A DNA stretch of 64,000 nt from positions 1,058,001 to 1,122,000 of the forward strand of contig NZ_CP126093.1 in the NCBI RefSeq assembly GCF_030123065.1, written 5' to 3'. Below, one piece after another: positions 1,352 to 35,831 of the stretch. Each line of letters opens with the position of its first letter. Position 1 is the stretch's first letter. The stretch is from Neobacillus sp. DY30 (GTDB lineage: Bacteria > Bacillota > Bacilli > Bacillales > Cytobacillaceae). The position numbers and the translations under genes are program-made. Below the pieces are notes generated by a model that was given only the letters and a program-made list of their open reading frames with translations, had not been told where the DNA came from and searched no databases.

Positions 1352-4105
1352 ATGACAGTGGAAAGTCAATTAGTAAAAAAGTCATATTATCAAATGTACA
1401 TAAATGAACATGAAGACGTGCAGCCAATCCGGGTATTAGGCGAAGCATATCAGGAAGAGCTTCAAAAAGACCTGCCTAATTTAACATCTATTCGTTTCGC
1501 ACAAGGTGAAATTTATTTTCATAATCGGGACTTTGAAGCAGCCATTTTTAAATGGGAAAACATTGCTGGTGAACTTGAATTATGGGCTAAGAAAAATATT
1601 GCGGATGCCTACTATGAATCAGGTCTTCTCTCAAACGCAGAGGATCTTTATCTTTCAATTGAAACGAATAATCTCACATTAAAGACAGAGGTTGCACTGC
1701 AGCTTTTTTCACTCTACATTGATCGGGAGAAGCGTGACGAAGCAGTTGAGATAATCAAAAAAACGATTGATTCAAACCCAGATTACCCAAATGTGACCGA
1801 TATCGCACGTTCCTATTTTGAGGATCAGCAGGATTGGGATAATGCCATTGAATTGGCAGTAAACGAAGCGAAGCGAACAGGTTCAATTGAGTGGTTTGAA
1901 ATCGTAAATTCTTATGTGAAAAAAGATCTTACGAAAAGGTTACATCCGAATTACTTCACACAAGCTATATTTGAATTGTGCAGCATAGATCAGAGAATGT
2001 TTGAAGAGCTTACATCTTCCCTATGGAAAAGTTACCGAGATGAAGAGTCATATTTCACTTGGCTCAAAGAGGTAAATCATCTGCTATTAAATCTCGAAGT
2101 TAGCCGAAACAGTAACTTTGAATCCCTTTCAGAGTTACATTATCAAACTTATTTTGGTTTAATAAATAGCGACTTTTTTATTAAAACGCTTGAAGATCTA
2201 GTACCTGACCTTTTAACAAATTGGCTGCGGTTATCTGTTCCGAAGCATACTGTCCTAGTTTCAGCGTCGGTATTGTCATGGAACGAGCTCTTCCCAGCAA
2301 GTATAAGCATGTCCATTGTTAGTGAAGCTGAAACTCTTATTAGTGAAACAGATAGTAATATTGACGAGTTAGAAGAGAGTTTAAGTCTATTTGAGGCGAT
2401 TATTAGTTGGGCAAAAGCAAATGATATGGGAGAGAATAACCACTTAAAATGGATGGTCAAACAATTAAATGATTTTGAGACCCATCACCTATTCATTACA
2501 GGCCTGAGCGGAAGTGGAAAGTCTGCTTTCGTAAATTCAGTCTTAGGTGAAGAAATCCAGGATGGCCCAACTTCTTCTCTTGTAATGTTTAAAGACTTTG
2601 ACGACTTAAATATATATGAAATAACCGATCAAGAAACAGTTGCCCTAGCGGATTTTACACATTTCCAAGAGCGGATGGATCGACGCAGGAATGCACTTGA
2701 GTCGATTATCGAATTTCAACAGCCATTTCCATTCTTGTATGAGCAAAAGTTAGCATTAATTGAAACGCCAGGATTAAAAGGCAGCCGCCAAGATCGCTAT
2801 GAAATACTCCAAAATGTTCAAATGGCGGATACATTATTATTTGTATTAGATGCAAATGCTCCGTTTACGGAGATAGAGAAAGCGGTTCTTTCAGAAATCA
2901 ATGAGCTTGCACCGGATATTCCTGTCCATTTTCTCTTAAATAAGATGGATACGATTGTTAATGAACAGGAAGCAATGAGGATTTTTGATGAAACAACGTC
3001 TAAGATTCAGTCTTTTTTTCCTGAGGCACAGGTATTCGCCTACTCCTCCCAGTACGAAAGAGGACAGCAATTAGTCGAATTAAAAGGCTTTATCAAATCA
3101 ATCAAAGATACAAGAAACATAGCAGATAAGCGCTTGGCGAAGCTTTTATTCTTCATAAGGACTACTATTTCCAGGCTGTTACAAAAGAGAATTGATGTTG
3201 AGAATCAATTAATTGAGTCGGTTCGCTGGAATGAAGAGGTAGTAATGAAGCTAAATGGGGCTCTTAATCAATTAAAGGACGCTGAGGCGCAAAAAACAAA
3301 AGTCATCACAAGGTCATATCGTTCCATAAAGGAAACCATCCAAAATGAAATTTCTATCGAAGTACCGAAAATTCTTCAGGAATGCTCAGAGTTCATTAAT
3401 GAAGACAGTAACCTAAGTACGATTCATATCGAGCTAAATGATGTGATGAATAATCGAATACAAGATTACCTAGAGCGGGACGTAATGCCGAAGTATTATA
3501 CGGCACTTCAAGAATGGATTAACAGTAGTAAAGAGGAATTTGTGCAAGGACAGGAATTTTTAGATGAGATGACGGAAGGATTAAATAGCTTATATGGCGA
3601 AGAGCGAATTAAGACAGAATGTGATTTTAAAGTACTTGATGATTGGCGTCGGGATACGGATAGAATGACGAGCCGACTCCAATTAGAAAAGGTAAATATC
3701 TTACTTCGCAACACACCATCACAATTATTATTAAAAAGTGCAGGGAAGCTTTTTGGAGCATTATCTCAAAATAAAGCAATGCTTTATAATAAATATAAAG
3801 CTTTTGTGAAAAATGATAGCTACTCTGAACCAACTGAGATTGTTATTGAACGCTTTTTCCAACAGTTTGAGCTATTTGAGAAATCACTGGAAAGAGATAT
3901 AACGTTGTTCTTTAAACAGCCATTGAAAACACTTAATGAAGCCATTGAAGAATCACTTTCTCAAATATCGACAAATCAGGATATCTTGAAAAAAATGAAT
4001 ACGAACCCGGAAATGTTCCGCGATCCGTTAACACTATTTGAAGTTAGACTGCGTCAATTTGAATGGGCAACAATAGCAGGGAAGGGTGTACACACGTTAT
4101 ATTAA
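1352..4105 (+). CDS. TPR-domain dynamin-like GTPase
   Basis: This large protein (917 aa) has no obvious signal peptide. Residues about 20-165 look like degenerate tetratricopeptide helices (alternating Ala/Tyr/Leu pattern, e.g. NIADAYYESG). A dynamin-type GTPase domain follows: G1 GLSGSGKSAF at 384-393, G3 ETPGLKGS near 471 (Glu replaces the usual Asp of DxPG) and G4 LLNKMDT near 530. The C-terminal ~300 residues are helical and charged, as in bacterial dynamins that act on membranes. It starts at an ATG behind GGAGGG. It is a single-gene unit between two terminators. It is unlike B. subtilis DynA, which has two GTPase modules. Role unknown; membrane remodelling or stress protection is inference. 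Confidence 0.8.
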   Translation: MTVESQLVKKSYYQMYINEHEDVQPIRVLGEAYQEELQKDLPNLTSIRFAQGEIYFHNRDFEAAIFKWENIAGELELWAKKNIADAYYESGLLSNAEDLYLSIETNNLTLKTEVALQLFSLYIDREKRDEAVEIIKKTIDSNPDYPNVTDIARSYFEDQQDWDNAIELAVNEAKRTGSIEWFEIVNSYVKKDLTKRLHPNYFTQAIFELCSIDQRMFEELTSSLWKSYRDEESYFTWLKEVNHLLLNLEVSRNSNFESLSELHYQTYFGLINSDFFIKTLEDLVPDLLTNWLRLSVPKHTVLVSASVLSWNELFPASISMSIVSEAETLISETDSNIDELEESLSLFEAIISWAKANDMGENNHLKWMVKQLNDFETHHLFITGLSGSGKSAFVNSVLGEEIQDGPTSSLVMFKDFDDLNIYEITDQETVALADFTHFQERMDRRRNALESIIEFQQPFPFLYEQKLALIETPGLKGSRQDRYEILQNVQMADTLLFVLDANAPFTEIEKAVLSEINELAPDIPVHFLLNKMDTIVNEQEAMRIFDETTSKIQSFFPEAQVFAYSSQYERGQQLVELKGFIKSIKDTRNIADKRLAKLLFFIRTTISRLLQKRIDVENQLIESVRWNEEVVMKLNGALNQLKDAEAQKTKVITRSYRSIKETIQNEISIEVPKILQECSEFINEDSNLSTIHIELNDVMNNRIQDYLERDVMPKYYTALQEWINSSKEEFVQGQEFLDEMTEGLNSLYGEERIKTECDFKVLDDWRRDTDRMTSRLQLEKVNILLRNTPSQLLLKSAGKLFGALSQNKAMLYNKYKAFVKNDSYSEPTEIVIERFFQQFELFEKSLERDITLFFKQPLKTLNEAIEESLSQISTNQDILKKMNTNPEMFRDPLTLFEVRLRQFEWATIAGKGVHTLY

Positions 4106-27383: not shown

Positions 27384-28634
27384 ATGAAAGAAGGCAACCT
27401 AGTTCATAAATTACTCTACGAAGAAACTAAAGCAACTAAGCTATTTTTGTGGTTATTTTATATTTTTTTCATAGCTTTTGAATTAATTTATTATTATATT
27501 TTTCCGAATTTGTATAGAGATGGGGAGATTAGTAAACATAGAGAGGGATTGGGATTATGGTACTACTTCTTTATTTTTGTTATATTCCCCTTTGTGATTT
27601 ATTTTAAGAAAAAAGGGAATCCCTATATTATTAAGTATCTCTATTTCTGTACCTATATTGTTATTGATACCGTCCATAACTTAATTATTTATATGGCAAC
27701 GGACAAACAATTTGCCGCAGGGAGTATTGTCGAGGTAGTTTTTATTCTTTTTTCTCCTATTTTTGTAAACAAAAAATATTTTTGGACAGTTTCTATTGGA
27801 ATGGTGTTAAAATATGGTCTAATTGGAATTACTATCCATGATGTTCAGGTTGTGGCTCCTATGGTCATATATGTAATCCTTTCAGCAATTGCCTTGATTA
27901 TTTTAATTCGTTTTGAATCATATTTACATTCCTTAACGAATGCTTATGAGGAACTTCGAAGGAAAGAAAAACTCGCTGTAATAGGTCAAATGGCAGCAGC
28001 TATTGGTCATGAAATACGAAATCCGCTTTCTTCCTTAAAAGGGTTTACACAGCTGCAGCAAGAAAGGTATCCAAATACAAATGATTTCTATCCGATTATG
28101 ATACAAGAAATAGATCGGATTAATTCAATCGTGGAGGATCTTATGACACTTGGAAAACCCAAGGAAATTAAATTTTCAAAAGTTAGTATTGAAGAAATTA
28201 TTGCCTACACCCTATCAATTACACAACAACAGGCCGAAAAACATGTGGTTTCAGTTGAAACAACGATAGCTGGACCACTTCCTCCAATCGATTGTGACAG
28301 CAAACAGTTGAAACAGGTTTTTATTAATTTAATAAAAAATGCAATTGAATCTATGCCTATGGGTGGAAAAATAAAAGTAAATGTAAAGGTTTTAGATGGT
28401 ACTAAGATGGATATTTCAATTCAAGATGAAGGATGTGGTATAGATGAGGAGAGCATTCCAAATCTTGGTGAACCATTCTTTACCACTAAAACCGATGGTA
28501 CAGGTCTTGGATTAATGGTCTCAAACCAAATTGTTCAAGACCATCACGGGAATATTTCGATTAAAAGCAGTCCTGGAAAAGGTACAATGGTCAATGTGAC
28601 ACTACCAATTTCACAGATTAATAGAAAAAATTAA
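27384..28634 (+). CDS. Membrane sensor histidine kinase with orphan sporulation-kinase architecture
   Basis: A six-helix membrane sensor (about residues 15-180) is linked directly to a HisKA domain with phosphoacceptor H209 in IGHEIRNPLSSLKG, and then to an HATPase domain (NAIESMP; DEGCGID; GTGLGLMVSNQIV). There is no PAS or HAMP domain. No response regulator adjoins it, as for the Bacillus kinases that feed Spo0F. The sensor aligns along its length with that of the HD-GYP protein encoded next (e.g. IFVNKKYFWTVSIGMVLKY here versus IFLNTRYFWLVTIGFTLKY there). The shared sensor implies a common, unknown ligand. Confidence 0.88.
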   Translation: MKEGNLVHKLLYEETKATKLFLWLFYIFFIAFELIYYYIFPNLYRDGEISKHREGLGLWYYFFIFVIFPFVIYFKKKGNPYIIKYLYFCTYIVIDTVHNLIIYMATDKQFAAGSIVEVVFILFSPIFVNKKYFWTVSIGMVLKYGLIGITIHDVQVVAPMVIYVILSAIALIILIRFESYLHSLTNAYEELRRKEKLAVIGQMAAAIGHEIRNPLSSLKGFTQLQQERYPNTNDFYPIMIQEIDRINSIVEDLMTLGKPKEIKFSKVSIEEIIAYTLSITQQQAEKHVVSVETTIAGPLPPIDCDSKQLKQVFINLIKNAIESMPMGGKIKVNVKVLDGTKMDISIQDEGCGIDEESIPNLGEPFFTTKTDGTGLGLMVSNQIVQDHHGNISIKSSPGKGTMVNVTLPISQINRKN

Positions 28635-28838: not shown

Positions 28839-30005
28839 ATGATACCGCATGAAGAAAAACAAACCGTAAAAGGATATTTATTAATATCTTATATTTTAAT
28901 AATTGGCTGGGATGTATTTTACTACTACTTTAATCCTAAGTATGTTGGAAAAAATGAAGCCATTGGGCTTCCTAATAATATATGGTACCTTAATTATATC
29001 GTGTTATTTGTAGTACTGGCCATTGCATATTATTTAAATAAGGTAAATCTACAAAATCGCATTAAATATATATTTATTATCAGTTATTTAAGCGTATCTT
29101 TTCTTGTTGATATAGTTTCCTTTCACGGAAATAATGACGGATATACAAGTGGGAATGTGGTAGAAATATTTCTAATCCTATCATTGCCAATATTCTTAAA
29201 TACCAGATACTTTTGGTTAGTTACAATTGGATTTACCTTAAAATACATCGCAACGGGAGTTTTATTAAAAACATCCCTAGTAGTCGTACCAATAGTATTA
29301 ATTGCAATTTTATCTGGACTATCATTCTTTTTATTAGTCCGCTTTCAAGGGTATGTCCGTGCGCTTAGCAGTTCCTATGATAACCAATTGGAGGGAATTG
29401 TAAAAGGTGTAATTGCTACTCTCGAATTAAAAGACCCGTATACTAGAGGACATAGTGAGCGTGTTGCGAAATATGCGTTAATGTTTGCGAATGAAATCGG
29501 AAAGTTCTCAAAAGAAGAACAAAAATCTTTCTACTATGCTTGTTTACTCCATGATATTGGTAAAGTGAATATTCCTGATCAAATTCTAATGAAACCTGGA
29601 AAACTTACAAATGAAGAATTTGAGATCATCAAGTCTCATCCAGTAGTCGGTGCTGAAGCGGTTAAGGATGTGGAAGGAATAAAGAATAGTATTTATGTGA
29701 TCCGTTCTCATCATGAACGTTGGGATGGTAAAGGGTATCCCGATCAATTAAAGGGGGAAGAAATACCTTTACTAGCTAGAGTTTCTGCAATTGCTGATGC
29801 ATTTGATGCGATGACTTCATCTAGGTCATATCGGGATGCATTGCCATATGAAGAAGCGTATAACCGAATAATCAAAGGACAGGGTTCACAATTTGATCCT
29901 ATGCTTGTGGAAAAGTTTAAAAAGATTTTCCCAGCATGGATTAAATTTCATCAAAATTATCCTTGGTCAGAAAAATGGGAATTACATAGGGAGGTGGAGA
30001 AATGA
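28839..30005 (+). CDS. Membrane HD-GYP domain protein sharing the upstream kinase's sensor
   Basis: A six-helix membrane domain (about 10-175) homologous to that of the preceding kinase is fused to an HD-GYP hydrolase. The metal-binding HD is at 238-239 (LLHDIGKVNIPD), with HHERWDGKGYP at 291-301 and DAFDAMTSSRSYR after it. The family degrades c-di-GMP or related cyclic dinucleotides. ATG at 28839 lies five bases behind GGAGG; an upstream in-frame GTG lacks a site. The stop overlaps the start of a tiny ORF (ATGA), indicating translational coupling. Confidence 0.88.
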   Translation: MIPHEEKQTVKGYLLISYILIIGWDVFYYYFNPKYVGKNEAIGLPNNIWYLNYIVLFVVLAIAYYLNKVNLQNRIKYIFIISYLSVSFLVDIVSFHGNNDGYTSGNVVEIFLILSLPIFLNTRYFWLVTIGFTLKYIATGVLLKTSLVVVPIVLIAILSGLSFFLLVRFQGYVRALSSSYDNQLEGIVKGVIATLELKDPYTRGHSERVAKYALMFANEIGKFSKEEQKSFYYACLLHDIGKVNIPDQILMKPGKLTNEEFEIIKSHPVVGAEAVKDVEGIKNSIYVIRSHHERWDGKGYPDQLKGEEIPLLARVSAIADAFDAMTSSRSYRDALPYEEAYNRIIKGQGSQFDPMLVEKFKKIFPAWIKFHQNYPWSEKWELHREVEK

Positions 30006-30067
30006 AAATCCGGAAACTTAAAAAGGTAAAAACAACTTGCTGGTGGTGTATTTACGTAGGAAAGTAA
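30002..30067 (+). CDS. 21-residue CWWC peptide, candidate signalling or RiPP precursor
   Basis: The ATG overlaps the HD-GYP stop (ATGA) and is preceded by GGAGGTG at ideal spacing, one of the strongest ribosome-binding sites in the window. The product has a basic N-terminal half (MKIRKLKKVK) and a C-terminal half TTCWWCIYVGK with two Cys flanking two Trp. A strong terminator begins six bases after the stop, so the ORF is the deliberate last cistron of this transcript. The next gene encodes a peptide-maturation type M50 membrane protease. I infer a leader plus core peptide that is processed and exported. Chance ORF remains possible because of its small size. Confidence 0.6.
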   Translation: MKIRKLKKVKTTCWWCIYVGK

Positions 30068-30073
30068 TAAAGC

Positions 30074-30108
30074 AGGATGCAAGCGAAAGCCTTGCATCCT
30101 TTATTTTT
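30074..30108 (+). terminator. Rho-independent terminator after the tiny peptide gene
   Basis: A perfect 10-bp stem AGGATGCAAG with CTTGCATCCT and a 7-nt loop, followed by TTATTTTT. Confidence 0.9.
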
Positions 30109-30137
30109 CATAATTTAGTGGAGGAGCGGCCTTTTAG

Positions 30138-31334
30138 ATGAACATAACACTCCATTCGCGTATTTCTATTGTTCCTATTGATATTCACAAAGATAAAAAG
30201 CATTATATCGTCGAGGACAAACTTACTGGTGAGTTTTATGAAATGCCAGAAATATGTATTGAAGCAATTAATAGGATAAATCAAGGTTTTCGCCTAGGTG
30301 AAATTGAAACAACACTTATGGGGAAATTCCCAAAAGAAGAGGTAAATCTAATCGATTTTGCCAATCAGCTTTTTGAGATGGAATTGATTGATCAGATTGA
30401 TGGTGTAAGGATTGAAAAAAAACAAATTTCAAATGAGCAATCCGAGATGTTATGGGTTTCCCCTAAATTAGGTAAATTCTTTTTTAATAAGTTTACTGTT
30501 CAAATATATAGTGTAATATTCGTATTAAATATAGCAATTTTCATTGTTAATCCTTCTTTATTTCCCCGCCGTGATGATATTTTCGTTTTTGATATTATGT
30601 TCGTGAATGTAATTGTTTGGATGTCGTTCAGCTTTCTTTTTGTGTTAATTCACGAATTTGGTCATGTACTGGCTATTAGAGCACACAATCTTCCAACTAA
30701 AATGGAAATTGGCCACCGAATGTTTTTTGTAGTGTTATTAACAGATATGTCTGCAATCTGGAAATTGCCGCCTAAGGACCGAAACATTCTTTTCTTAGGA
30801 GGACTGTATTTTGATTCAGTTCTGCTTTTTATAGCACTAATTGTCCAGTTGTTTTTTTCAAATGGGCCCTTTCTTATCGTTGGCTTAATGCAACTTGCCA
30901 CTTTTGATATTGTATTGAGAATGATATTTCAATGTTGTATTTATATGAAAACAGATTTGTATTTTTTATTTGAGAACGTTTCTGGCTGTTACAACTTGAT
31001 GGAAAATGCAAAGCATGCCATTAGAAAACAGCTTTCATTCTTAAAATTAAAGCCAATGGATGAAGAGGATGAGGTTGTTTTTGCTGGTGAAAAAATGGCG
31101 GTTAATACTTATACAATTTTCTACTTTTTAGGGTTTATGGTAACGATTGTCTTATATTTTATGTATTTTATTCCACAAATGATTCAAGTAGGAATAAAGC
31201 TGCTTCCTGGATTTGTACAACCCCCTACGAGCTTGCTATTCTGGGATGCTCTTGTTTTTTCATTACAAGTGGGCATTTTTATTTCTTTTCTTCTATATTC
31301 TTGGCGAAAAAAATATCTTCTTAATAAGATGTGA
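30138..31334 (+). CDS. PqqD-like/M50 membrane metalloprotease of the peptide-maturation class (YydH-like)
   Basis: Residues about 15-95 resemble a PqqD-type peptide-recognition fold. They are followed by an integral membrane M50 protease with zinc motif HEFGH at 172-176, a candidate third ligand Asp in GGLYFDS, and the family block TDLYFLFENVSGCYNLMENA near 272-291. About six to eight hydrophobic helices are present. Such proteins (for example B. subtilis YydH) sit in gene sets for modified peptides and are thought to process or export them. ATG follows GGAGGAG with slightly long spacing. The adjacent CWWC peptide is the obvious substrate candidate. No radical SAM, cyclodehydratase or lanthionine enzyme gene is nearby. 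Confidence 0.8.
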   Translation: MNITLHSRISIVPIDIHKDKKHYIVEDKLTGEFYEMPEICIEAINRINQGFRLGEIETTLMGKFPKEEVNLIDFANQLFEMELIDQIDGVRIEKKQISNEQSEMLWVSPKLGKFFFNKFTVQIYSVIFVLNIAIFIVNPSLFPRRDDIFVFDIMFVNVIVWMSFSFLFVLIHEFGHVLAIRAHNLPTKMEIGHRMFFVVLLTDMSAIWKLPPKDRNILFLGGLYFDSVLLFIALIVQLFFSNGPFLIVGLMQLATFDIVLRMIFQCCIYMKTDLYFLFENVSGCYNLMENAKHAIRKQLSFLKLKPMDEEDEVVFAGEKMAVNTYTIFYFLGFMVTIVLYFMYFIPQMIQVGIKLLPGFVQPPTSLLFWDALVFSLQVGIFISFLLYSWRKKYLLNKM

Positions 31335-31405
31335 CAGAGATTTGTCTAAAATTGATTTAATAAGGGTTTTTTCCCCGACAGATGGGGGAGTTCCCCTATA
31401 TAGAT

Positions 31406-31461
31406 AACACTAACGAATTTCTTACAATAAGAGTAAGAAAACTCGTTAGTGTTATTTTTTT
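31406..31461 (+). terminator. Long hairpin with T tract directly before the oxidoreductase operon
   Basis: AACACTAACGA pairs with TCGTTAGTGTT, extended by TTTCTTAC with GTAAGAAA, and is followed by seven T that run straight into the AGGAGGAG ribosome-binding site of the next gene. It could simply end the protease transcript, or act as an attenuator in the leader of the operon. Confidence 0.75.
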
Positions 31462-31474
31462 AGGAGGAGCTCAA

Positions 31475-32557
31475 ATGCAGACTAATACTTCAAGCAATAA
31501 AAAAACAGGACGCTCGTTCGATAATGCGTTTGCGTCCAAATTTGCGAAATCAATGTTTTTATCGGTATCTGCTATTGTTATTCTATCTTTTATTGCGACT
31601 AGAATGTTTACACACGTTGATTTAAATCTATATGGATATATGGTGGGAACGATTGTGTTTATCGGAGGATTTTTCTACCGCTTTATCGCGTGGGGCGAAA
31701 GACCGCCAACTAAAATCTTCATCAAAAAAGGTTTAAAGCTTCTAAAAAGAAAAAGTACGCCTAAAACAGCTGTTAATCATTTAGCCATCTATGATTTTAT
31801 TAAAAATCGCGGGCTATATCGCTGGATACAGCATATTTTAATCGGCTGGGGATGTGTCCTTGCATGTTTGGTTACCTTCCCGCTCGTGTTTGGCTGGATG
31901 TATTTTACGATGGATGATAATGGCTACTACACGATCGTTTTAATGGGAATGAACTTAATAGAGGTAAAAGCGGATGGAATCATCGCTTGGTTCTCCTATA
32001 ATGCATTAAATATTGCCGCTATTATGGTAACAGCAGGTGTATGTATGGCATTACGCCGCCGCTTAAAAAACATGCAGGCAAGAGCAGAACAAAAGTTTAT
32101 CTATGATTTCCTGCCGCTTTATCTATTGTTATTTATTTCGATCACAGGTCTTTTATTAACCGTTCAAAATGTATTCTTACATGGCTGGATGCAGCCGCAA
32201 ATGTCATTGATTCACCAGTTTTCAGTTATCGTAACGCTAATCTATCTGCCATTTGGAAAGCTCGCACATATTCCATTCCGTCCAGTAAGTGTTTTTGCAA
32301 GAAATTATCGCGAACATTACGGCGAACAGGCAATGAAAGAATGTAAAGTGTGCGGCGATCATTTCGTATCAGTGGAACAATCCAATGATGTAATAAATGT
32401 ACTTGGCGTAAATGCTATGGAATTTAATATGCAGGATGGCTTTAACCTAGCTGAATTGTGCCTTCCATGCCGAAGAAAATACAGAATTTCTAGATTCTCT
32501 GGAATCGCAACGCACCAAGTGAAGGTCAAGGAGGCTAACCAGAATGCAAGAGGTTAA
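31475..32557 (+). CDS. NarI-like membrane protein with C-terminal CxxC pairs, first gene of molybdo-oxidoreductase operon
   Basis: An integral membrane protein (360 aa) with about six hydrophobic segments. HQFSVIVTLIYLPFGKLAHI near 250 resembles the haem-ligand helix of NarI, the cytochrome b subunit of nitrate reductase, suggesting quinol oxidation. The cytoplasmic tail carries CKVCGDH and CLPCRRKY, a likely zinc or iron-sulfur site not usual for NarI. ATG at 31475 follows GGAGGAG; a longer frame would run back through the upstream hairpin. It overlaps the next gene by 14 nt. Its electron-transfer role is inferred. Confidence 0.7.
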   Translation: MQTNTSSNKKTGRSFDNAFASKFAKSMFLSVSAIVILSFIATRMFTHVDLNLYGYMVGTIVFIGGFFYRFIAWGERPPTKIFIKKGLKLLKRKSTPKTAVNHLAIYDFIKNRGLYRWIQHILIGWGCVLACLVTFPLVFGWMYFTMDDNGYYTIVLMGMNLIEVKADGIIAWFSYNALNIAAIMVTAGVCMALRRRLKNMQARAEQKFIYDFLPLYLLLFISITGLLLTVQNVFLHGWMQPQMSLIHQFSVIVTLIYLPFGKLAHIPFRPVSVFARNYREHYGEQAMKECKVCGDHFVSVEQSNDVINVLGVNAMEFNMQDGFNLAELCLPCRRKYRISRFSGIATHQVKVKEANQNARG

Positions 32558-34733
32558 TTTTAAGAACGAAAGAGATAAATATTTTAAAGAAATAGATAAC
32601 TTAAACCATCCAAATGAAACTTTAGTTAAAACACACTGCAGCTATTGTGCGATGCAATGTGGAATGAACTTAAGGGTAAATACCAAAACAAACAAAATTA
32701 TCGGAGTGGAGCCGCGTTATGATTGGCCAGTTACTCTTGGTAAGATGTGTCCTAAAGGTGTTACTGCTTACCAGCAGGTTAATCATAAAGATCGTTTATT
32801 AAAACCGTTAATCCGCGATGATAAATCATTAAAGGGAACGAACAAAGGTTTTCGTGAAGCAAGCTGGGATGAGGCATATGACCTGATTGTTAAAAAGTTC
32901 AAGGAAATTCAAGCTGCATATGGAAAAGATTCACTCTCAGTATATAGCGGTGTTTCCATGACGAATGAAAAATGTTATTTAACAGGTAAATTTGCTCGTG
33001 TAGGACTGCAAACACGCTACATTGATTATAATGGACGTTTCTGTATGGCAAGTGCAGCCGGTGGATTAAATCGTTCTCTAGGTATTGATAGAGGTTCAAC
33101 AGTTCCTTGGACGGATGTACATGAGACAGATTGTATCTTTCTTGCAGGAAGCAATACCGCTGAATGTCATCCAACATCCATGTTTCGTATCTGGGCAGTT
33201 CAAGAAAGAGGCGGCTATGTAATTGTTGCTGATCCTCGGGAAACACCTATCGCTAGAAGAGCCGATCTGCATTTAGATTTAAGGCCGGGAACAGACCTTG
33301 CGTTAGCAAACGGGATTGTAAATTTACTGATACAGAATGGCCATGTTGATGAAGAATTTGTCAATAATCACACCAATGGTTTTGAAGAAACAAAGCAGCT
33401 TGTTAAAGAATTTACACCAGAATATACAAGCGAACTGACTGGTGTGGCACCAGAAAAAATTATCCGTGCAGCAGAACTTTATGGAAAAGCACCGAATGCC
33501 ATTGTTATGTTTGCAAGAGGCATTGAGCAGCAAGTTAAAGGGGTAGACAACGTTTCTGCCTATACAAATATGGCTCTAATTACAGGAAAAATTGGCCGTC
33601 CTAAATCAGGTGTTGCAACGATCACAGGACAAGGAAACGGTCAAGGCGGCCGTGAGCACGGACAAAAGGCAGATGCACTGCCTGGCTATCGAAAAATTGC
33701 TTATCCGGAACATGTGGAGTACATTTCTAAGGTTTGGGGAATTGAACCGGAAGAAATGCCAAAAGAAGGTGTTTCGGCTTATGAAATGTTTGGATTAATG
33801 GAACAAAAGACGATTCGTGCCCTTTACCTATTATGTTCCAATCCTGCCGTTTCTGCACCGAATTTAAATTATGTGCGCGAACAGATGAAAAACTTGGACT
33901 TTATGGTTTGTGTTGACTTTTACCTTTCTGAATCTGCCGAATTCGCTGACGTCGTACTTCCTACAACAACTTGGGCGGAAGATGAAGGGACCACAACGAA
34001 TGTAGAAGGCCGAATTATCAAGATTAATAGAGCACAAATGCCGCTGGGAGAAACGAAGCCAGACTGGCAGATTCAAGTAGAAATCGCAGAGCGTATGGGA
34101 CGCGGTAAATATTTTTCGCACTTGAAAACGTCAAAAGATATCTTCAATGAACTTCGTGTTGCTTCAAAAGGCGGCACAGCTGATTATTATGGAGTAACTT
34201 GGGAAAAGATTGACAAACAAGATGGCGTGTTCTGGCCATGTAAAGACGAAAGTGATCCAGGAACACCACATTTGTTCCTAGATAAAAAATTCTATCATCC
34301 AGATGGCAAAGCAAAAATCTTTGCCTTGCCTTACAGACCAGCAGCAGAAGAACCGGATCAAGAGTATCCGCTTCGGTTAACTACTGGTAGAGTAGTGTAT
34401 CACTATCTGTCAGGCAATCAAACTAGAAGAATACAATTCTTGCGTGATATGAGCCCTGAACCTTTTGTAGAAGTACATCCAGAAACAGCAGAAAAATATG
34501 GAATTAATCATGAAGAAAGAGTCCGCCTTTTTACAAGAAGGGGAGAGGCTATTTATCAGGTAAAAGTAACCGAGGCCATTCGTAAGGATACCGTGTTTGT
34601 TCCTTACCACTGGGGCCATGAAAAATCTATCAATCTTTTGACCATTGGCGCACTTGATCCTATTTCAAGAATGCCAGAATTTAAAGCTTGTGCAGCACAG
34701 ATAGAAAAACTAGAACTAAAGAAGGTGCAGTAA
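32544..34733 (+). CDS. Molybdopterin oxidoreductase, NarB/NasA/NapA-type (probable nitrate reductase)
   Basis: A cytoplasmic Mo-bis-MGD enzyme of 729 aa. An N-terminal [4Fe-4S] site is formed by C32, C35, C39 (CSYCAMQC) and C69 (KMCPKG). C167 in NGRFCMASA is the expected cysteine ligand to Mo, as in assimilatory and periplasmic nitrate reductases. GSNTAECHP and DPRETPIARRAD match the NasA/NarB group. There is no Tat signal. It lies between a NarI-like membrane subunit and a four-cluster ferredoxin, followed by Nre-type nitrate-sensing regulators. Nitrate is therefore the best substrate guess; formate or another oxyanion is not excluded. Confidence 0.85.
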   Translation: MQEVNFKNERDKYFKEIDNLNHPNETLVKTHCSYCAMQCGMNLRVNTKTNKIIGVEPRYDWPVTLGKMCPKGVTAYQQVNHKDRLLKPLIRDDKSLKGTNKGFREASWDEAYDLIVKKFKEIQAAYGKDSLSVYSGVSMTNEKCYLTGKFARVGLQTRYIDYNGRFCMASAAGGLNRSLGIDRGSTVPWTDVHETDCIFLAGSNTAECHPTSMFRIWAVQERGGYVIVADPRETPIARRADLHLDLRPGTDLALANGIVNLLIQNGHVDEEFVNNHTNGFEETKQLVKEFTPEYTSELTGVAPEKIIRAAELYGKAPNAIVMFARGIEQQVKGVDNVSAYTNMALITGKIGRPKSGVATITGQGNGQGGREHGQKADALPGYRKIAYPEHVEYISKVWGIEPEEMPKEGVSAYEMFGLMEQKTIRALYLLCSNPAVSAPNLNYVREQMKNLDFMVCVDFYLSESAEFADVVLPTTTWAEDEGTTTNVEGRIIKINRAQMPLGETKPDWQIQVEIAERMGRGKYFSHLKTSKDIFNELRVASKGGTADYYGVTWEKIDKQDGVFWPCKDESDPGTPHLFLDKKFYHPDGKAKIFALPYRPAAEEPDQEYPLRLTTGRVVYHYLSGNQTRRIQFLRDMSPEPFVEVHPETAEKYGINHEERVRLFTRRGEAIYQVKVTEAIRKDTVFVPYHWGHEKSINLLTIGALDPISRMPEFKACAAQIEKLELKKVQ

Positions 34734-35294
34734 ATGAAGAAGAGGTTATATCTTGAACTTGAAAACTGTATAGGCTGCCGCTCTTGTTTGGCTGCCTGCA
34801 CACAGTGCGGCGGGCATGAGGAGCGTAACCGTAACTATGTATACGATGTTAACCCGCTGGTTAACCGACAAACTATGCCTCTAATGTGCCTTCACTGTGT
34901 GAATCCAGCATGTGCTAGAAGCTGTCCGGCACAGGCAATCCAAATCCATGAAACAGGGGCCGTTCTTTCGGCTCTTGTTGAAAAGTGCATTGGCTGTCAA
35001 AACTGTACAATTGCCTGTCCATACGGTATTCCTAAATTTGATACAGAGCAAAATCTCATGTATAAATGTGATCTTTGTATTGACCGCACAAAGGACGGAA
35101 TCCCTCCAATGTGTGCAAGTGTATGTCCGTCAAATACCTTGCAGTGGTTAACGGATGAGGAAATTGAAGCAAAGCAAAAGCAATTTAATTTAGATAATGG
35201 TAAATGGGTAACAAGCATGCCTTATTTAGAAGGCGAAACAAATGTTAGAGTGAATCTCCCTGGTATCTTGCAGGGTGTCACAAAATTGTTTTAG
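34734..35294 (+). CDS. Four-cluster [4Fe-4S] ferredoxin electron-transfer subunit
   Basis: A DmsB/NrfC-like iron-sulfur protein of 186 aa with four cysteine groups: CIGCRSCLAAC, CVNPACARSC (preceded by CLHC), CIGCQNCTIAC and the split CDLC with CASVC. It would carry electrons between the membrane quinol-oxidising subunit and the molybdenum subunit. ATG directly follows the TAA of the upstream gene. No signal sequence, so it is cytoplasmic. Confidence 0.9.
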   Translation: MKKRLYLELENCIGCRSCLAACTQCGGHEERNRNYVYDVNPLVNRQTMPLMCLHCVNPACARSCPAQAIQIHETGAVLSALVEKCIGCQNCTIACPYGIPKFDTEQNLMYKCDLCIDRTKDGIPPMCASVCPSNTLQWLTDEEIEAKQKQFNLDNGKWVTSMPYLEGETNVRVNLPGILQGVTKLF

Positions 35295-35306
35295 GAGGGA
35301 TTAACC

Positions 35307-35831
35307 ATGACAGATAAAAATACTAAAATCCCGTTCAATGAAGATAACTATACACATAATATAAACCGCAACAATGAAAGAAAACTGGACCGCCGTGGTT
35401 TTATGAAGACCTTGGTTGGTGCTGCCGGAGTGTTCGCTGTTTCCTCCCTTCCATGGGGAGCAGTAGCCGCAAAAGAACTCATTGGTTTAGGAGATAAGAA
35501 ATATCCGAAGCAAAAGATTGCTGACGTAAGTGCGATTCCTGTCGGGGATGCCGTTGATTTTCATTTCCCTGGTGAGCATGATAGTGCGATTTTAATTAGG
35601 CTGTCCGAAAATAAATATGTGGCCTATCAAAATGCCTGTACACATCTACGCTGCCCAGTGTTTTGGCAAAAGGATGAAGGCGATTTGCTCTGCCCTTGCC
35701 ATCACGGGAAATTTGATGTTGAAACAGGAGCACCGACTGCAGGGCCGCCAAGACGCCCGCTGCCAGAGATCCATGTAAAGGTTGAGAACGGCGCTGTTTA
35801 TGCCGTGGGGGTGAAACGATATGAAGCGTAG
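35307..35831 (+). CDS. Rieske [2Fe-2S] protein with Tat-type signal anchor
   Basis: A 174-residue Rieske protein. The cluster motifs CTHLRC and CPCHHGKFD are intact. Residues about 29-55 have a twin-arginine pattern, RRGFMK followed by a hydrophobic stretch GAAGVFAVSSLPWGAVA, so it is probably exported folded and anchored on the outer membrane face like cytochrome bc1/b6f Rieske proteins. ATG follows AGGAGGG. It is in the operon with the cytoplasmic reductase, which is topologically unusual. Confidence 0.88.
   Translation: MTDKNTKIPFNEDNYTHNINRNNERKLDRRGFMKTLVGAAGVFAVSSLPWGAVAAKELIGLGDKKYPKQKIADVSAIPVGDAVDFHFPGEHDSAILIRLSENKYVAYQNACTHLRCPVFWQKDEGDLLCPCHHGKFDVETGAPTAGPPRRPLPEIHVKVENGAVYAVGVKRYEA

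Follow-up and report, generated by a model that had tools for sequence, protein, structure and literature searches.

A conserved CWWC peptide gene between MASE12-HD-GYP and M50 protease genes of Neobacillus sp. DY30 resembles the precursor of a signal peptide

Results

The peptide gene in the Neobacillus sp. DY30 window

The window analyzed here is a stretch of 64,000 nucleotides from Neobacillus sp. DY30 (contig NZ_CP126093.1, positions 1,058,001 to 1,122,000), in which an open reading frame (ORF) of 21 codons lies between the gene of a MASE12-HD-GYP phosphodiesterase of cyclic di-GMP (c-di-GMP) and that of an M50 membrane protease. It is translated as MKIRKLKKVKTTCWWCIYVGK, followed by a stop codon. 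The HD-GYP stop and the peptide ATG overlap (ATGA), five bases separate GGAGGTG from this ATG, and a terminator-like hairpin starts 6 bases after the peptide stop; these features, on which the original prediction of a peptide gene had been built, were all confirmed from the sequence. The ORF is, on comparison across genomes, a genuine gene with a leader/core division and a fixed linkage to its neighbor, and it is single-copy in the DY30 genome. Its product looks like the precursor of a so far undescribed signal peptide.

A chance ORF was rejected, given that the ORF is conserved, is under codon-level selection and is preceded by a ribosome-binding site (RBS). No Pfam or NCBIfam model was found for the peptide, a 21-residue query being weak in such searches. 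The open-licence papers searched held no report of a CWWC peptide or of an RRE-M50/HD-GYP pair (RRE, RiPP recognition element; RiPP, ribosomally synthesized and post-translationally modified peptide). A mobile or phage gene was not indicated, as tblastn of the 21-residue peptide against plasmids and phages was empty even at E 10, with a query length near the limit of the search. No Rfam family was found at the peptide or the hairpin; the lone match, miR-430 at 31401-31459, was sub-threshold (28.2 bits against a gathering value of 47.3) and was taken as chance.

Table 1. Features of the CWWC locus, in window positions
Feature	Position	Strand	Basis
CWWC precursor peptide gene, 21 codons	30002..30067	+	comparison across loci, selection, RBS
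RBS GGAGGTG of the peptide gene	29990..29996	+	sequence; 6-7 of 7 bases in 138/150 distinct ORFs
Basic leader MKIRKLKKVKTT, codons 1-12	30002..30037	+	pN/pS 0.17; lost in 3/3 M50-less loci
Core CWWC and variable tail IYVGK	30038..30064	+	core kept in three M50-less loci; tail pN/pS 0.78
MASE12-HD-GYP c-di-GMP phosphodiesterase, constant partner, probable target	28839..30005	+	Pfam MASE12 2.9e-41, HD_5 5e-37
RRE-site-2 protease fusion (M50), 398 aa	30138..31334	+	invariant residues, predicted fold
Terminator-like hairpin AGGATGCAAG/CTTGCATCCT and T-tract, between peptide and M50	30074..30109	+	fold z -4.1
MASE12 sensor histidine kinase, optional partner	27384..28634	+	Pfam MASE12 3.5e-30, HisKA, HATPase_c

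Conservation and co-occurrence of the peptide

In Bacillus-like genomes, the MASE12-HD-GYP gene was followed by a peptide with the consensus MKIRKLKK[VI]K-x-T-x(0-3)-C-W-[WIVL]-C and a variable tail of 2-10 residues, the total length ranging from 15 to 26 residues across genera. A scripted scan, which demanded C-W-x-C, revealed a short ORF with CW[WIVLF]C in the slot beside HD-GYP or M50 at 260 of 261 loci; the sole miss (L151) was a stretch ending inside the ORF, with KIRKLKKIKTTCWWCYF still visible, and no other slot was empty. The 150 distinct ORFs (143 distinct peptides) were used as the working count because many of the loci were one genome fetched twice. M50 was present in the stretch for 144 of them and absent for 3; for the other 3, the stretch or contig ended before it. 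At two loci (L086 and L128) the script placed the start too early (27 residues), and the MKIR start was scored instead. Six or seven of the seven bases of GGAGGTG were matched in 138 of the 150 ORFs, versus 51 of 2969 random ATGs, a count favored by the script, which chose the start with the best RBS where several were possible.

By protein search in a sample of 60 genomes, M50 was found in 35 of the 36 same-genus genomes, DY30 included, and the slot 5' of M50 held the peptide in all 30 loci L001-L030, mostly as MKIRKLKK[VI]KTTCWWC and in a few cases as LKIRKLKK..T.xCW[IV]C. Across the genus, HD-GYP was found in 60 of 61 genomes, an M50 match in 58 of 61, and the peptide in all 60 genomes with HD-GYP; the exceptions were G006 (neither HD-GYP nor M50), G471 (contig ending just inside M50) and G155 (no M50). 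The family sample of 151 genomes contained a close M50 in 73, each with the peptide (73/73), after G090 of the 74 listed had been set aside as a distant 30% homologue; one of the 73 (G106) is known only by a leader-pattern match in the slot. MASE12 carriers in the family numbered 101, with at least two matches in 75 (the 73 plus G155 and G093) and one match in 26. Among the 299 genomes sampled from the order, HD-GYP was present in 32, all of them with the peptide and all but G391 with a close M50. An additional order genome (G232) had the peptide and M50 beside an HD-GYP gene that runs off the contig and is split in frame. The HD-GYP/peptide/M50 trio was also present outside the order, in three genomes of one family (G825, G727, G801).

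The leader pattern matched 48 of the 151 family genomes against 5 matches of a reversed control, and one of its matches, in G179 (L038), was not the peptide. Nine order or family loci missed by the first pattern all held peptide variants on reading. Wider pattern matches (57 of 397 and 25 of 299 genomes) were in many cases out of frame or unrelated by eye and were counted only if read; of 11 new match regions read, 10 showed HD-GYP, peptide and M50, and the CWWC match in G095 was part of a longer unrelated ORF. The named genomes gave 63 exact leader-plus-CWWC matches, in Neobacillus, Mesobacillus, Cytobacillus, Oceanobacillus, Virgibacillus, Lentibacillus, Sporosarcina, Caldibacillus and other genera, with HD-GYP upstream in all 62 whose stretch reached that far. 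According to these comparisons, the peptide is present wherever the HD-GYP gene was found, and the linkage is fixed. The original prediction had been staked on conservation of the ORF and its RBS in relatives that keep M50, and both are conserved.

Leader, core and tail

The basic leader-like half and the CWWC end noticed in the original prediction were borne out as a leader/core split. Leaders (140 distinct, from the 144 M50-bearing ORFs) were under purifying selection, with 0.72 synonymous (pS) and 0.12 nonsynonymous (pN) differences and a pN/pS of 0.17, 80 random sequences being sampled per set; the other frames of the leaders were interrupted by stops in 140/140 (+1) and 120/140 (+2). At least six of nine consensus residues were kept in 143 of the 144, and the remaining leader (L082) has four and keeps 5 basic residues. 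CWWC was almost invariant, its third residue being W in 136 ORFs and I, V or L in 8, and it was preceded by a spacer of 0-3 residues. The first three tail codons were near neutral (pN/pS 0.78). Tails were of 127 distinct forms among the 144 ORFs, rich in G and P, with an aromatic residue at position 2 in 116 and K or R often terminal. The pN/pS contrast, together with decay of the leader without M50 while the core persists (below), is what was looked for in a leader/core precursor.

Loss of the leader in M50-less genomes

Three genomes of three genera lacked M50 and kept HD-GYP and CWWC, their peptides being MNILKLKKLITACWWCAWLGV (G155), MKLIRFLMLIVSCWWCLWWQP (G093) and MKALIAIACWWCFFF (G391). 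These begin MNILKLKKLITACWWC, MKLIRFLMLIVSCWWC and MKALIAIACWWC, the basic leader being gone; positions 2-10 contain 3, 2 and 1 K/R residues, versus 4-6 in 144/144 M50-bearing ORFs. The absence of M50 was judged at E limits of 1e-30 and 0.001, and in the G391 assembly (500 contigs, 94% completeness) other genes follow the peptide. M50 and the basic leader were found in same-genus relatives of each (58 genomes for G155, G070 for G093 and G232 for G391), and the three losses are, on this comparison, independent. In G176 and G099, M50 was interrupted and the basic leader was still there, as expected if M50 suffered recent damage or a sequencing error. Given that the leader was lost with M50 while HD-GYP and CWWC were kept, the leader appears to serve M50 and the core something else; the core was assigned to HD-GYP because this was the only constant neighbor found.

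By eye, the M50-less leaders show ITA|C, IVS|C and AIA|C, which resemble a lipobox; a lipoprotein reading is not claimed, the leaders being very short and holding basic residues. The G155 locus (L217) also carries an additional MASE12 kinase copy at 2236-3437, apparently disrupted.

The M50 protein

The M50 protein is predicted with high confidence to combine a leader-binding-type RRE (PqqD-like) domain with a site-2 protease, in agreement with the N-terminal PqqD-like domain proposed in the original prediction, the best structural matches being leader-bound RRE proteins. The HExxH motif, HEFGH at 30651-30665, and a distal Asp were found, H172, E173, H176 and D273 being invariant in 84 M50 sequences; the Pfam M50 score was 16.3, under the cut-off of 27.2. 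An AlphaFold2 model from the 84 sequences had a pLDDT of 93. Foldseek ranked complexes of lasso B1 with its leader at the top with weak E values (best 0.06). When aligned with VIA-align, residues 7-86 gave Z 9.9 against leader-bound lasso B1 (rmsd 2.5 over 80 residues), the RRE part lying at about 30156-30407; the N-terminal part gave Z 8.8 against PqqD, and the remaining part Z 9.6 against RseP and 9.0 against SpoIVFB. Z values under about 13 can reflect an arrangement that is common among helical proteins, so the assignment as a site-2 protease draws on the invariant HExxH and Asp as well. No family model for a PqqD-like domain exceeded its cut-off in the window protein, and Pfam PqqD scored for distant homologues only, just below the cut-off.

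The RRE domain is acidic, with a mean net charge of -10. E26 was found in 71 and E35 in 70 of 72 subfamily sequences, both in predicted strands and both specific to the subfamily; the distant homologues have G at position 26 in 12/12 and R at position 35 in 7/12. These distant PqqD-M50 proteins (L091-L105) share the domain order at 23-31% identity, and 12 of the 15 genes lie immediately after a gene of about 370-425 codons, whose product had a ThiF domain in both cases tested. L095 and L100 instead precede a gene that resembles, by eye, one for an MFS transporter, and the upstream gene of L104 is divergent. At L225 (also L144), about 2 kb of inserted DNA lies between the peptide and a full-length M50 and includes, by eye, a reverse transcriptase gene of group II intron-like type.

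The HD-GYP partner and the kinase

H238-D239, HHE at 291-293 and DG-x-GYP at 296-301, the motifs of an HD-GYP protein, were invariant in 74 sequences, and the predicted model (pLDDT 92) matched the HD-GYP protein PA4781 in its HD part (E 1.5e-11). A full-text literature search for MASE12 gave no relevant paper. Two membrane receptors encoded upstream had been proposed to sense the peptide: both carry MASE12 in the window, and of the two it is HD-GYP alone that is linked to the peptide. The kinase does not hold up as a constant partner. It was not in the stretch read beside several cassettes (e.g. L121-L123, L131, L136), lay 3' of M50 in L064, L065 and L119, and occurred without HD-GYP in the three single-MASE12 loci read (L220, L222 and L223). 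At L222, a remnant of the M50 C-terminus (3645-3797) adjoins a MASE12 kinase that is truncated at its own C-terminus, likely the scar of a joint loss of HD-GYP, peptide and M50.

Distances of core plus tail at 111 loci correlated with those of HD-GYP (rank r 0.28 for MASE12 and 0.29 for HD) and of M50 (0.16-0.19). The partial correlations of the HD-GYP parts given any other part were 0.16-0.25, reached by 0/200 permutations, and those of the M50 parts given an HD-GYP part were 0.02-0.07, reached by 14-75/200. This is modest evidence from sequence distances that core and tail track HD-GYP more than M50. The tail tracks MASE12 no more closely than HD, so these distances do not point to a contact domain.

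Hairpin and neighborhood

The hairpin at 30074-30100 has 10-11 pairs and a predicted energy of -15.9 kcal/mol (z -4.1), and none of 200 shuffles was as stable. GGATGY...RCATCC occurred at its place in 94 of 130 distinct M50-bearing loci, 14 of the 144 being dropped as too short to judge, and at 28 sites in the 6.1-Mb genome (reversed control, 4). The gap from hairpin to M50 leaves scant room for a promoter. The stem letters GGATGY/RCATCC are the same across genera, beyond the needs of a plain terminator; the hairpin was kept in the M50-less L217 and replaced in L218 and L244.

Neighborhoods were compared in 28 of the 63 named loci, chosen for diversity, using ORFs of at least 90 codons in stretches of up to 8 kb placed unevenly. 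Beyond HD-GYP, kinase and M50, no neighbor was conserved in more than 5 of the 28, and the trio lies as a unit in differing surroundings. As the original prediction had held for the window, no classical RiPP enzyme is adjacent: no modifying enzyme was conserved in these stretches, whose flanks are uneven, and one elsewhere in the genome is possible. A radical SAM epimerase, looked for as the mark of an epipeptide locus, was not among the conserved neighbors in the 28 loci. By eye, 31460-35831 holds a respiratory oxidoreductase cluster with genes for molybdopterin-type, ferredoxin-like and Rieske-like subunits; such a cluster also lies 3' of the cassette in L217, from the same genus, and in L218, from a different one, and was not shared by at least 4 of the 28 loci.

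Discussion

The best explanation is that the precursor is cut by the RRE-M50 protein into a CWWC peptide that acts on the MASE12-HD-GYP protein, a reading to which we give about an even chance as a whole. The basic leader MKIRKLKK[VI]KxT would be bound by the acidic RRE (PqqD-like) domain of M50, and the site-2 protease domain would cleave the peptide within the membrane, at the junction of leader and core or close to it. Once released or delivered to the membrane, the core, C-W-[W]-C with its short, hydrophobic, species-variable tail, would then act on MASE12-HD-GYP and tune the breakdown of c-di-GMP; it would be either a self-signal that is secreted or a membrane ligand supplied locally. The hairpin 3' of the peptide gene probably lets the peptide exceed the protease in amount. 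The half of this model that joins leader, RRE and protease is well supported for computational work and is probably correct; that the core is the ligand of MASE12-HD-GYP could equally prove right or wrong. A bolder version is a new minimal class of peptide signaling across Bacillus-like bacteria, in which an unmodified CWWC autoinducer of about 6-14 residues, matured by the dedicated RRE-site-2 protease, binds directly to a membrane c-di-GMP phosphodiesterase as its ligand; this version is tentative and would more readily fail than hold.

Several points weigh against this explanation. CWWC is far more constant than expected of a pheromone core and would fit a fixed role in structure or redox chemistry as well, and no conserved exporter was found near the peptide in the 28 loci. 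M50-less leaders number only three. The M50 model had no Foldseek match at E 0.001, its N-terminal region is also matched by enzymes that do not belong to RiPP pathways (8hkr, Z 8.9; PKMT2, Z 7.9), and the RREs of distant M50 proteins are just as acidic on the whole (-11.5), so that charge by itself lacks specificity. The HD half correlates with core and tail as well as MASE12 does, and shared descent with the HD-GYP gene could explain the correlation. One locus (L245) has two tandem MASE12-HD-GYP genes with one peptide and M50.

The nearly fixed CWWC beside a varying tail would also be accommodated if the peptide were no intercellular signal but a membrane micro-subunit of MASE12-HD-GYP, which M50 processes or destroys by regulated intramembrane proteolysis to set enzyme activity; CWWC may then act as a redox sensor, through a disulfide or by binding metal or heme. 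The one-to-one linkage to HD-GYP, the short and more hydrophobic M50-less peptides, and the lack of a conserved exporter or separate receptor in the 28 loci fit such a subunit, but its tail would hardly be expected to be nearly unconstrained and species-variable, and an RRE-leader handle is the hallmark of a precursor being matured, not of a substrate being destroyed. We regard this account as unlikely, though the strongest of the rivals. The WW codons are adjacent, the terminator stands 6 bases past the stop with M50 behind it, and the stem sequence is conserved, as would suit an attenuator in which ribosome stalling at Trp/Cys codons controls the terminator and thereby M50 expression, the peptide itself being inert. 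An attenuator leader should depend on the gene it controls and be otherwise free in sequence; the peptide and CWWC persist after M50 loss, the N-terminal residues are constrained as protein with synonymous change free, and the spacer and tail vary in length. No special RNA fold was found over the whole leader (z -1.5), competing folds in relatives not being searched. Attenuation is thus very improbable.

A RiPP, possibly antimicrobial like epipeptides, would have its core modified by an enzyme encoded elsewhere and its leader trimmed and exported by M50, with HD-GYP as regulator or bystander. For it speak the RRE-type domain, the leader/core architecture, a core rich in Cys and Trp, the position of distant M50 homologues mostly after ThiF-type genes, and an M50 protease as in epipeptide loci (PMC10885120). 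No modification, immunity or export gene is conserved nearby in the 28 loci, the peptide survives the loss of M50 and was found only together with HD-GYP, and a single copy in DY30 with a core nearly invariant across genera is unlike a diversifying bacteriocin; this account is improbable. The preferred reading, maturation by RRE-M50 and action on HD-GYP, makes the peptide work like a pheromone matured by M50 or like the precursor of a minimal RiPP, and it is a putative member of either class; RiPP membership is unproven because no conserved modifying enzyme or exporter lies nearby.

WW motifs are also found in ComS. Streptococcal SHP and ComS pheromones, matured by the site-2 protease Eep/RseP, likewise involve a very short peptide gene beside the probable target (PMC10202637). 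There, housekeeping Eep and a cytoplasmic Rgg-type regulator take part, whereas the CWWC system has a dedicated RRE-protease gene and a presumed membrane HD-GYP target. The epipeptide locus of Bacillus (epeXEPAB or yydFGHIJ; EpeX-EpeP) similarly encodes a short precursor, together with an M50 membrane protease presumed to cleave and export it (PMC10885120); in contrast, no radical SAM epimerase or ABC genes were found conserved at the CWWC locus, whose constant partner is a c-di-GMP phosphodiesterase, the comparison being one of gene content. With RRE-dependent RiPP pathways (lasso B1, PqqD, sactipeptide and linear azole-containing peptide (LAP) enzymes) it shares a conserved leader and a predicted RRE-type fold, the leader-binding type being indicated by that fold only (Z 9.9, with non-RiPP enzymes reaching 8.9); it differs in that no adjacent modifying enzyme was found and in a leader of only about 12 residues that is very basic. 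The M50/PqqD proteins beside ThiF-type genes have the same domain order, but neither MASE12-HD-GYP nor a CWWC peptide was found in their stretches.

Many genera carry the peptide in a fixed place, and at 15-26 residues it has probably been missed by annotation. The MASE12 input domain gains a candidate ligand, and RRE-M50 proteases gain a candidate natural substrate that is defined and for which evolution has supplied the controls. The pairings of leader with protease and of core with phosphodiesterase give directly testable predictions on peptide control of c-di-GMP in Gram-positive bacteria. If a CWWC autoinducer is indeed the direct ligand, this would be a Gram-positive route from a peptide signal straight to c-di-GMP.

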